A stretch of DNA of 64,000 nt from Pseudomonas paralcaligenes (GTDB lineage Bacteria; Pseudomonadota; Gammaproteobacteria; Pseudomonadales; Pseudomonadaceae). Made by a program: the position numbers and the translations under genes. The notes beneath the pieces are model-generated. The model ran no database searches and had not been told where the DNA came from. It saw nothing but the letters and a program-made list of their open reading frames with translations. Positions within the stretch are counted from its first letter, which is position 1, and the number at the start of each line of letters is the position of its first letter. The stretch is from contig NZ_BPFX01000001.1 of the NCBI RefSeq assembly GCF_019655855.1, positions 1-64,000 on the forward strand. Reading direction: 5' to 3'. Of this stretch, positions 18,302 through 48,140 are shown piece by piece.

Positions 18302-18381
18302 TCAATAACTTATATTTGACCAAGTGCAACTTGGAGCGCAAACTTCGCCATCATCACTCACAACTCCGGGCGGACTCCCTC

Positions 18382-18852
18382 ATGAAAGGCGACAAGAAGG
18401 TCATTCAGCATCTCAACAAGATCCTTGGCAACGAGCTGGTGGCGATCAACCAGTACTTCCTGCATGCCCGCATGTATGAAGACTGGGGCCTGAACCGGCT
18501 CGGCGAGCACGAGTACAAGGAATCCATCGACGAGATGAAGCACGCCGACAAACTGGTCAAGCGCATCCTGTTCCTCGAAGGCATTCCCAACCTGCAGGAT
18601 CTCGGCAAGCTGATGATCGGCGAGAACACCAAGGAAATGCTGGCCAGCGACCTGCGCCTGGAAATGCAGGCCGTGCCGGACCTGAAGGACGCCATCGCCT
18701 ACTGCGAGGCCGTCGGCGACTACGGCAGCCGCGAACTGCTGGAAGACATCCTCGAATCCGAGGAAGAGCACATCGACTGGCTGGAGACCCAGCTGGGCCT
18801 GATCGACAAGGTCGGCCTGGAGAACTACCTGCAGTCGCAGATGGACGAATAA
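18382..18852 (+). CDS. bfrB: Bacterioferritin
   Basis: The 156-residue protein keeps every bacterioferritin ligand: ferroxidase residues Glu18, Glu51, His54, Glu94, Glu127 and His130, and the haem-binding Met52. From memory it closely matches P. aeruginosa BfrB. Twenty-four subunits form a shell that oxidises and stores iron in the cytoplasm. The ATG at 18382 ([13 protein letters not shown]) is the family start; the longer frame from 18316 begins within the leader. A strong terminator follows. Confidence 0.95.
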
Positions 18853-18883: not shown

Positions 18884-18922
18884 AACGCCGCGATCCCCGC
18901 CGGGGGTCGCGGCGTTTTTCAT
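18884..18922 (+). terminator. Intrinsic terminator of bacterioferritin
   Basis: The stem AACGCCGCGA / TCGCGGCGTT plus CCCC/GGGG closes at 18884-18916 and runs into TTTTTCAT. That U-tract (18915-18922) is duplicated on the far side of the mobile element that begins at 18923. Confidence 0.9.
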
Positions 18923-19055
18923 GGTTCTGTCCACGCTGGTTGTTGCATACCTTGTGGGAGCGGATTTATCCGCGAATGTCGCGGCCTATGGGATGCCGCC
19001 CAGCCGCTCCCACAAACGCATGATTGCGCCGCCAACATCTAACGAGGACATAGCC
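18923..19055. mobile_element. MITE-like REP-pair element, copy 1
   Basis: The right end is ACATAGCC; the left end GGTTCTGT is a decayed form of GGCTATGT. The interior has GTGGGAGCGG...CCGCTCCCAC, a REP pair. Both sides carry TTTTTCAT (18915-18922 and 19056-19063), a perfect 8-bp direct repeat consistent with target duplication. No coding capacity. Confidence 0.75.
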
Positions 19056-19063
19056 TTTTTCAT

Positions 19064-19281
19064 GGCTATGTCCCCGATAGAGGTTGTCGTGCCCTGAGTC
19101 TTTCTGGATCCCCGCCTGCGCGGGGATGACGAGGTAGGGGTGGAATTTCTTCCGAAACCGTCATTCCCGCGAAGGCGGGACAGCAGCTGTATCGCTGAAC
19201 AGCGCTTGCGCTGGCCCGAAGGGGAATAATCCAGGGGCAGGCAGTTGTAGCATCTGCAACACACGTAACGGGGACCATGGC
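19064..19281. repeat. Second, longer palindromic element of the same end type
   Basis: It opens with GGCTATGTCCCCGATA and closes with a diverged complement (TAACGGGGACCATGGC). Inside, instead of the REP pair, are two facing copies of a different repeat (GGATCCCCGCCTGCGCGGGGATGACG-like at about 19107 and GTCATTCCCGCGAAGGCGGGA at about 19162). With copy 1 it fills the whole 437-bp gap 18853-19289; no gene is seen there. Confidence 0.55.
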
Positions 19282-21319: not shown

Positions 21320-21382
21320 CCTTGAGAGTTCCTCGGTTCGTCCATGTGCATGGCCGGCGATCATACCGCCGCCCACAAAAAA

Positions 21383-21502
21383 GGCTATGTACTCGTTAGT
21401 TGTTGCACGCCTTGTGGGAGCGGATTTATCCGCGAATTTCGCGGCCAAGGCCGCTCCCACAAGAGCAGAATTACGCCACCAACATATAACGGGTACATAG
21501 CC
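21383..21502. mobile_element. MITE-like REP-pair element, copy 2 (best preserved)
   Basis: This 120-bp element begins GGCTATGTAC and ends GTACATAGCC, with complementary arms of roughly 28 bp. The core is the REP pair GTGGGAGCGGATTTATCC...GGCCGCTCCCAC. The 8-bp sequence ACAAAAAA abuts both ends (21375-21382 and 21503-21510). The right-hand copy is the U-tract, on the minus strand, of the actP terminator. Confidence 0.85.
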
Positions 21503-21530
21503 ACAAAAAAGGGCAGCCCGAAGGCTGCCC
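21503..21530 (-). terminator. Intrinsic terminator of yjcH-actP
   Basis: Read on the minus strand, GGGCAGCC-TTCG-GGCTGCCC is followed by TTTTTTGT. It sits 24 bp after the actP stop codon. Confidence 0.88.
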
Positions 21531-21553: not shown

Positions 21554-23212
21554 TCAGTGAGCCGAAGCGCCGCTGGCGCCGAGGCCGGTCTGCGAACGGA
21601 CGAACTGCGGGTAGAAGCGTGCGCGCTCCTCGTCGGCGGCGCTGGACTTGTCGGTGATCGAGAAGAACCAGATACCGATGAAGGCCACCGCGATGGAGAA
21701 CAGCGCCGGGTACTCGTAGGGGTAGACCGGAGTGGCGTTGCCGAGGATCTGCACCCAGATGGTCGGGCCGAGCACCATCAGCACCACCGCCGTGATCAGG
21801 CCCAGCCAGCCGCCGATCATAGCGCCGCGGGTGGTCAGCTTCTTCCAGTACATGGAGAGGATCAGCACCGGGAAGTTGCAGCTGGCGGCGATGGAGAAGG
21901 CCAGGCCGACCATGAAGGCGATGTTCTGCTTCTCGAACAGGATGCCCAGGCCGATCGCCAGCACACCGAGGATCACGGTGGTGATCTTCGATACGCGCAG
22001 CTCGTCCTTCTCGTTGGCCTTACCCTTCTTGATCACGCTGGCGTACAGGTCGTGGGACACCGCCGAGGCGCCGGACAGGGTCAGGCCGGCGACCACCGCA
22101 AGGATGGTAGCGAAGGCCACGGCCGAGATGAAGCCGAGGAACAGGCTGCCGCCCACGGCATCGGCCAGGTGCACCGCCGCCATGTTGTTGCCGCCGATCA
22201 GGGCGCCGGCGGCGTCCTTGAAGTCCGGGTTGGTGCCGACCAGCAGGATCGCGCCGAAGCCGATGATGAAGGTCAGGATGTAGAAGTAGCCGATGAAGCC
22301 GGTGGCGTAGAACACCGATTTGCGGGCTTCCTTGGCGTCGGAGACGGTGAAGAAGCGCATCAGGATGTGCGGCAGGCCGGCGGTGCCGAACATCAGCGCC
22401 AGGCCCAGGGAGATGGCCGAGATCGGGTCCTTCACCAGGCCGCCGGGGCTCATGATGGCCTCGCCTTTCGGGTGCGCCTTGACCGCTTCGCTGAACAGGG
22501 TGCCGAAGTCGAAGCCGACGTGCTTCATCACCATCAGCGCCATGAAGGAGGCACCGGACAGCAGCAGCACGGCCTTGATGATCTGCACCCAGGTGGTGGC
22601 CAGCATGCCGCCGAACAGCACGTAGCAGACCATCAGGATGCCGACCAGCACCACCGCGACGTGGTAGTCGAGACCGAACAGCAACTCGATCAGCTTGCCG
22701 GCGCCGACCATCTGCGCGATCAGGTAGAAGGCCACCACCACCAGCGAGCCGCAGGCGGACAGGGTGCGGATTTCCTTCTGCTTGAGGCGGAACGAAGCCA
22801 CGTCGGCGAACGTGTACTTGCCGAGGTTGCGCAGGCGTTCGGCGATCAGGAACAGGATCACCGGCCAGCCGACCAGGAAGCCGATCGAGTAGATCAGGCC
22901 GTCGTAGCCGGAGGCGAACACCAGGGCGGAAATGCCCAGGAAGGACGCCGCCGACATGTAGTCGCCGGCGATCGCCAGGCCGTTCTGGAAGCCGGTGATG
23001 CCGCCGCCGGCGGTGTAGAAGTCGGCGGCCGACTTGCTGCGCTTGGAAGCCCAGTAGGTGATGTAGAGGGTGAAGCCGACGAAGGCGACGAACATGACGA
23101 TGGCCGCCATGTTCAGCGGCTGACGCTGCACGTCGCCTTCGAGAGCACCGGCAGCCCAGAGTGCCGGGGCAGCGACCATCAGGCCGACGGCGGTGAGGAG
23201 ACGCGCGATCAT
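21554..23212 (-). CDS. actP: Cation/acetate symporter
   Basis: The 552-residue inner-membrane protein belongs to the sodium:solute symporter family, with an N-terminal cleavable signal (about residues 1-20) and about 13 membrane segments. ActP-specific runs include [35 protein letters not shown] and [27 protein letters not shown]. It imports acetate and other short-chain acids. It overlaps yjcH by 4 bp, the usual pair, and the start agrees with the family length. Confidence 0.96.
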
Positions 23213-30156: not shown

Positions 30157-30191
30157 GGGCGTTTTCCACTCTTTATCGTGAGTCTAGGAGG

Positions 30192-47852: not shown

Positions 47853-47995
47853 TACAGCTCTCCGTGGAAAGCAGTGCCGAAACGCTCGGCACCTCCCTTG
47901 CAGGCGCCCATCTTATCAGCCCGGACAGGCCAAGAGCGTGACCCATGCTGACCTGTCAGACAAGAGTCGGGAACGGCCATCGTGGCCGATGGAAA

Positions 47996-48115
47996 GGCTA
48001 TGTACCGTTACGCGCTGGTGGCGCAATCCTGCGTTTGTGGGAGCGGCTGGGCGCATTCCGATTGGCCGCGAAATTCGCGGATGAATCCGCTCCCACAAGA
48101 TACGGCGACATAGCC
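47996..48115. mobile_element. MITE-like REP-pair element, copy 3
   Basis: This 120-bp element starts GGCTATGT and ends ACATAGCC, with the REP pair GTGGGAGCGG...CCGCTCCCAC inside. GATGGAAA abuts both ends (47988-47995 and 48116-48123). The right-hand copy is the U-tract of the ykvA terminator on the minus strand. The interior is in the opposite orientation to copies 1 and 2. Confidence 0.85.
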
Positions 48116-48140
48116 GATGGAAAGACCGCAGGCGGCGGTC
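48116..48140 (-). terminator. Terminator overlapping the end of the YkvA-type gene
   Basis: On the minus strand GACCGC-CGCCT-GCGGTC (48124-48140) is followed by TTTCCATC. The stem begins within the stop codon of the gene. The tail is the target duplication of the adjoining element. Confidence 0.65.

Follow-up and report, generated by a model that had tools for sequence, protein, structure and literature searches.

Known elements at terminators and A/T-rich sites

Two of the features treated here are already known: A/T-rich target duplications of 8 bp in insertion sequences of the IS1595 family and terminator targeting in group IIC introns. We analyzed a stretch of 64,000 nucleotides from Pseudomonas paralcaligenes (the window; assembly GCF_019655855.1, contig NZ_BPFX01000001.1, positions 1 to 64,000 of the forward strand), in which a gene-less 120-bp element with a core made of a pair of repetitive extragenic palindromic (REP) sequences lies at 21383-21502. 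It is highly likely to be a miniature inverted-repeat transposable element (MITE) of an IS1595-family insertion sequence, moved by the transposase encoded on contig C14 of the same genome and preferring, and duplicating, terminator U-tracts behind hairpins.

Group IIC introns are retroelements that move by reverse splicing and have neither terminal inverted repeats nor 8-bp duplications. Terminator targeting is common to them and to the elements of the C14 family; unlike the introns, the C14 element is, as judged by domain match, a DNA transposon of a DDE family. Tn7 has a safe insertion site, attTn7, in the terminator region that follows glmS. Its TnsD protein reads the glmS coding sequence, and Tn7 uses this single site without general recognition of terminators. 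A safe site in a terminator region is thus the likeness to Tn7, and the difference is that Tn7 has one site, chosen via the glmS coding sequence. Group IIC introns are described as targeting terminators, and in a structure of the intron ribonucleoprotein the particle is poised on a DNA stem-loop (PMC10190682). ISApl4 (IS1595 family, IS1016 group) produces A/T-rich 8-bp duplications at varied sites; of the 35 that are listed, 16 lie within genes, and the word "terminator" is absent from the main text of the paper (PMC12561309). The IS1595 transposase, the 8-bp duplications, and the A/T-rich targets are shared with ISApl4, but ISApl4 is described at A/T-rich sites, many of them intragenic, whereas the C14 family is found mostly at terminators. 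Nearer to the C14 transposase than ISApl4 are a protein named ISAeme10 (64% identical) and that of a plasmid copy named ISAchd1 (61%). MITEAba12 carries the ends of the co-resident ISAba12, which moves it, and enters A/T-rich targets with 9-bp duplications and no reported trend in target sequence (PMC6382973). It is like the present MITE in having the ends of a resident insertion sequence and A/T-rich targets and differs in its 9-bp duplications and in its mover, ISAba12. The P. fluorescens repeats R0 and R2 are MITE-like and intergenic, have inverted-repeat ends, and are enriched between gene tails in genomes that also carry the REP-like repeats IR1_g (PMC2718517). The passages of that paper on R0 and R2 contain no duplication placed exactly at a terminator. 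Searches of open PubMed Central papers turned up no DDE insertion sequence described as targeting terminators.

The element at 21383-21502 and its insertion site

The element (copy 2 of three in the window) has the ends GGCTATGTAC/GTACATAGCC. Immediately on both sides it is flanked by a perfect 8-bp duplication, ACAAAAAA, at 21375-21382 on the left and 21503-21510 on the right; neither the elements nor their duplications are assigned a strand. REP units were located by pattern search as one per MITE copy, the second, inverted unit being recognized by eye. When re-read, the sequence agreed with the sequence-only reading, which had described a gene-less 120-bp unit with matching ends, a REP-pair core, and perfect 8-bp repeats. 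That reading had also identified the right repeat as the U-tract of the actP terminator, and indeed the minus-strand hairpin GGGCAGCCCGAAGGCTGCCC (21511-21530) adjoins this repeat and lies behind a sodium:solute symporter gene on the minus strand (21554-23212). The name actP comes from the sequence-only reading, the domain match being PF00474. A consensus terminator scan placed a minus-strand terminator with 9 pairs and the tail TTTTTGT at copy 2. When hairpin, U-tract, and copy 2 are folded together on the minus strand, the terminator hairpin comes first and the element then forms a single long hairpin (-84.5 kcal/mol, z -9.6).

An unoccupied form of this site is present in three relatives (G303, G391, and G390), where ...GCCC ATAAAAAA GGGCAGCCCG... 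contains one 8-mer and the hairpin and lacks the element. The look-up, which followed a suggestion made with the sequence-only reading, covered 29 relative loci; the flanks of these three could be aligned by eye and those of most others had diverged. At the site of copy 1, most of eight relatives had a hairpin and a T-run behind the gene without an exactly alignable site. Because the end pattern occurred 0-5 times (2 mismatches allowed), near the reversed control, in the eight relatives nearest by symporter gene, the burst of copies is particular to this lineage.

Ends and 8-bp duplications across the genome

A search of the 5.47-Mb draft genome for the 16-base end gave 85 + 88 matches (173 in total, up to 3 mismatches), compared with 5 + 10 (15) for the reversed pattern. 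Among 66 end pairs picked on their ends alone, the 8-bp duplication was perfect in 29 and had a single mismatch in another 4. These pairs, which include some overlapping pairings of the same ends, are not every copy: they came from 40 of 224 candidate stretches that were scored, from ends listed among the 173, and from further stretches. The matching 8-bp flanks that the sequence-only reading expected genome-wide are therefore present, and 173 versus 15 ends together with 29 of 66 perfect duplications ruled out chance as the source of the flanking repeats. Of the 33 duplicated rows, L013 (235 bp) was omitted because it paired one left end a second time, which leaves 32 distinct sites (at most one mismatch). 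One of the 32 is the insertion sequence itself (L061); window copies 1 and 3 did not pass the end cut-offs and stand outside both the 66 pairs and the 32 sites. Larger paired members reach 375-400 bp, and their cores, in those viewed, differ from the REP pair. The duplications are T-rich, with TTTTTCAT/TTTTTTAT as the common form.

The boundaries of the mobile unit are GGCTATGT..ACATAGCC, with the 8-bp duplications outside, and the same holds for elements with other cores and for the insertion sequence. This bears on the possibility that the element is a REPIN (a REP doublet forming a hairpin) moved by a REP-associated tyrosine transposase (RAYT), its flanking repeats being incidental. By definition, the mobile unit of the REPIN/RAYT system ends at the REP pair and makes no target duplication, and RAYT movement is not known to leave duplications of this kind. 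The REP-pair core would fit such an origin, as would two REP loci without MITE ends within 150 bp (window position about 11703, and L180), found in 464 kb with a strict filter. The unit observed here, however, extends past the REP pair to the GGCTATGT ends and its 8-bp duplications, and RAYT movement was rejected for the whole unit; we regard the REPIN explanation as having next to no likelihood. The REP pair inside the MITE is probably a passenger captured from such loci.

Hairpins at the duplications

For scoring, the duplication of each site was taken with its two flanks and oriented so that its T-rich strand was read, and a score was given to the best stem that ended at it; exact abutment refers to a stem that ends there. 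At 24 of the 32 distinct sites in this genome, a stem scoring 18 or more ended exactly at the duplication. The best stem end spreads over offsets -5 to 0 once A-T pairs may extend into the U-tract, since flanking A-runs pair with it.

Control 8-mers were taken from 464 kb of the same genome if they scored at least as high as the sites in a matrix built from the sites, and a stem score of at least 15 was used. Over the whole 464 kb, a hairpin was found at 7 of 26 control 8-mers at the median score versus 16 of 16 sites, and at 23 of 271 at the lower quartile versus 21 of 24 sites. Restriction to predicted intergenic DNA, using a simple gene caller based on third-position G+C, gave 7/20 versus 16/16 insertion sites (p=3e-5) and, in the larger set, 22/112 versus 21/24 (p=5e-10). 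A matched intergenic control for the copies in the Pseudomonas genomes G150 and G197 (see below) gave 10/47 versus 11/12 sites. Insertion directly behind hairpins thus exceeds base composition in this genome and in the G150/G197 set, and the excess over matched controls indicates that the hairpin counts beyond the sequence of the 8-mer. The proposal of a non-autonomous transposon that selects intrinsic terminators was supported by 24 of 32 sites, 8 of 32 being without a hairpin above the cut-off, and the absence of any excess of terminator tails, which would have told against it, was not what the matched intergenic sites showed.

Alternatively, the transposase might merely prefer A/T-rich 8-mers, of which U-tracts would be the commonest in a G+C-rich genome. 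The T-richness of the duplications and their common form are in keeping with this idea, and ISApl4 is described with A/T-rich 8-bp duplications at many types of site, 16 of 35 listed ones being intragenic (PMC12561309). Intergenic controls matched for the 8-mer nevertheless had far fewer hairpins than the insertion sites, on which ground pure A/T preference was rejected as the full explanation; it is improbable as the principal one. It may account for the hairpin-less minority and for a weaker bias in other genomes.

The 1,033-bp insertion sequence on contig C14

Two of the ends lie 1,033 bp apart on contig C14 and flank a gene for a 321-aa transposase of the IS1595 family, which matched NF033547 (E=1e-55) and PF12762 (2.4e-10), both above cut-off. 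Both ends are GGCTATGTACCCGTTA, and the duplication TTTTTTAT is found on both sides, behind a G+C-rich hairpin. Terminal inverted repeats that begin with GG mark the IS1595 family, and the C14 element has such repeats together with the 8-bp duplications. It had been anticipated that a transposase other than RAYT was needed, with IS1595, ISL3, and IS66 among the candidate families, and that a full-length insertion sequence might share the ends of the MITE; the C14 element answers to both. ISL3 and IS66 were set aside after the mover had been assigned to IS1595, and no separate search for either was made. A relative with a solved structure was not found at E<=0.01.

The short MITEs lack a transposase and have the ends and the duplication length of this resident insertion sequence. 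Because these are identical, the C14 insertion sequence very probably moves the MITEs in trans. Transposase matches in the draft genome amounted to one full copy (C14) and one adjoining remnant. The genome is in 351 contigs, and therefore collapsed repeats could conceal further copies of the insertion sequence. The remnant (G000:C14:247616-247740) is the 3' end of a transposase with its own terminal repeat, beside the intact insertion sequence.

Autonomous relatives in other genomes

Homologues at E<=1e-60 were present in 16 of 398 Pseudomonas genomes sampled across the genus. In G150, a 72%-identical insertion sequence was found in twelve copies, all of which adjoin a terminator-like hairpin: eleven scored at least 15 exactly at the duplication, and in the remaining one (L132) the duplications are mismatched and a hairpin was recognized by eye on one side. 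When all copies are turned to the same sense, six have the hairpin to their right and six to their left, and there is thus no orientation rule. Eight of the copies are base-identical over 1,036 bp, pointing to a young burst with little time for selection. Two of three copies in G197 lie at terminators. The third (L086 1430-2465, 72% identical) has its duplication in the loop of an inverted repeat with 15-bp arms, which is not a usual terminator; this insertion hints that DNA structure itself may be read.

The identical copies also bear on selection. Insertion could be widespread, with copies surviving only behind terminators because they are harmless there (the "least worst location"). The tail-to-tail bias of the P. 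fluorescens repeats has been attributed to selection (PMC2718517), and since all copies are found in genomes, some filtering must operate. Selection does not, however, predict a duplication that begins exactly at the hairpin base; hairpin-less T-rich intergenic sites, which should be equally harmless, are used far less; and the eight identical, hence recent, G150 copies are all at hairpins. Given exact abutment, matched controls, and identical copies, pure selection was rejected as the full explanation, and we consider it unlikely to be the main cause.

A wider survey (loci L081, L083-L112, L202-L231, L274, L312-L319, and L336-L345) gave 36 distinct bounded copies after duplicates, unbounded loci (decayed and contig-end copies), and some known copies (e.g. 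two of five in G267) had been left out. Loci L232-L273 and L275-L280 (31-38% identical) were mostly without boundaries in a separate attempt; L233, L235, L267, and L277 were bounded and are not counted. Half of the copies, 18/36, lie beside a hairpin (score 15, 0-3 nt allowed). Clear examples come from Aeromonas (two of its four distinct copies) and Azotobacter (one of two); one of two in Aromatoleum, both in Stutzerimonas, and several in Pseudomonas miss hairpins. Outside the 36, because it failed the end cut-off, is L356 from Pseudomonas sp. 8AS, whose transposase is 87% identical; there, TTTTTCTT follows a sequence that resembles a hairpin. Related ends also occur on a 167-bp MITE, L347, in another Pseudomonas (G090), where a single base separates the duplication AATAAAAA from a hairpin of terminator type, and on a second such MITE, L360, which is not at a hairpin.

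Weight of the evidence

Support for a MITE that the C14 transposase directs to terminator U-tracts comes, at sequence level, from the ends, the 8-bp duplications, the abutting hairpin, its excess over the matched controls, the unoccupied site in relatives, and an autonomous relative that shows the same habit in identical, hence recent, copies. Several observations weigh against it. In the 3.5 kb around copies 1 and 2, the consensus scan found 2 terminators versus 2.2 expected in shuffles, and because shuffles give as many, it is no evidence by itself. A quarter of the sites in this genome (8/32) have no hairpin above the cut-off at the duplication. Outside this genome, G150, and G197, the surveyed copies beside a hairpin number 11/28 (score 15, 0-3 nt) or 7/28 at score 18, and the preference in other genomes is thus weaker or not clade-wide; 11/28 exceeds the own-genome control of 39/271 (p=0.001), but that control has another genome's base composition and the excess is no more than indicative. 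The link to the MITEs in trans is drawn from the ends and the duplication length, and site choice is partly plain A/T preference, as known for ISApl4 (PMC12561309). On the supporting side, a hairpin was seen solely on the 5' side of the T-rich strand at 35 sites and solely on the 3' side at 1, as compared with 147 and 67 for T-rich control 8-mers (p=9e-5). A functional terminator has this polarity; the control was looser than in the main test and not matched position by position, and the polarity is suggestive.

Proposed mechanism

The preferred insertion target would be the U-tract of an intrinsic terminator, the 8 bp that immediately follow its G+C-rich hairpin. The transposase would cut one strand at the base of the hairpin and the other 8 nt further into the U-tract, and repair of the resulting gaps would then duplicate the U-tract. 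With the U-tract duplicated, the hairpin would retain one and the neighboring genes would stay uncut. We infer that the terminator still works after insertion, and the family probably spreads without breaking genes or terminators. As to recognition, the transposase complex might sense the hairpin extruded in DNA, comparable with group IIC introns on DNA stem-loops, or the opened DNA of a terminating RNA polymerase. The RNA-DNA hybrid of the terminating polymerase is ~8-9 bp, about the length of the duplication. That terminator structure is recognized in one of these two ways is a guess, and both models fit the sequence. Tentatively, this IS1595 lineage could be guided by transcription termination, capturing the opened 8-bp U-tract (or the extruded hairpin) with a duplication that restores the terminator.

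If so, a DDE transposon would have a general, structure-based safe-haven strategy and would be the DNA-transposon counterpart of group IIC introns. Most insertion sequences, for which loose target choice is typical (PMC6382973), can harm genes; a reader of terminators would find harmless sites genome-wide that can be duplicated without evident loss. It would also offer a mechanism for gene-tail-biased repeats hitherto ascribed to selection, perhaps a tool for placing DNA downstream of genes that are left whole, and a way to test by what means hairpins or terminating polymerases could be sensed by a DDE transposase.

Other copies in the window

The window contains 16 end matches versus 3.65 expected, among them two lone end-like sequences at 30190 and 32458 (GGCTATTTCC and GGCTATGTAC) without a visible partner. 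Copy 3 (47996-48115, 120 bp) has a REP-pair core and the duplication GATGGAAA on the left (47988-47995) and right (48116-48123). The right duplication adjoins a hairpin, GACCGCAGGCGGCGGTC (48124-48140), of 6 pairs by eye, and the tail TTTCCATC is a poor U-tract. Of the earlier statement that all three well-bounded copies coincide with terminator U-tracts, the 8-bp duplications hold throughout and two terminators are good, whereas that of copy 3 is only a weak one.

Copy 1 (18923-19055) measures 133 bp and has a REP-pair core. Its left duplication, TTTTTCAT (18915-18922), is the U-tract of a plus-strand terminator behind a ferritin-like gene (18316-18852), the hairpin of which was placed at 18898-18914 by the consensus scan. 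Directly after the right duplication, also TTTTTCAT (19056-19063), a second element (19064-19281) begins with the left end of copy 1, has a different core, and closes with a degenerate right end (4 mismatches), outside which no duplication was found. It appears as an insertion into the U-tract already duplicated by copy 1, and similar arrays occur at L010, L065, L072, and L156. Its core carries, at 19105-19180, another palindromic repeat, CCCCGCCTGCGCGGGG plus its relative CATTCCCGCGAAGGCGGG.
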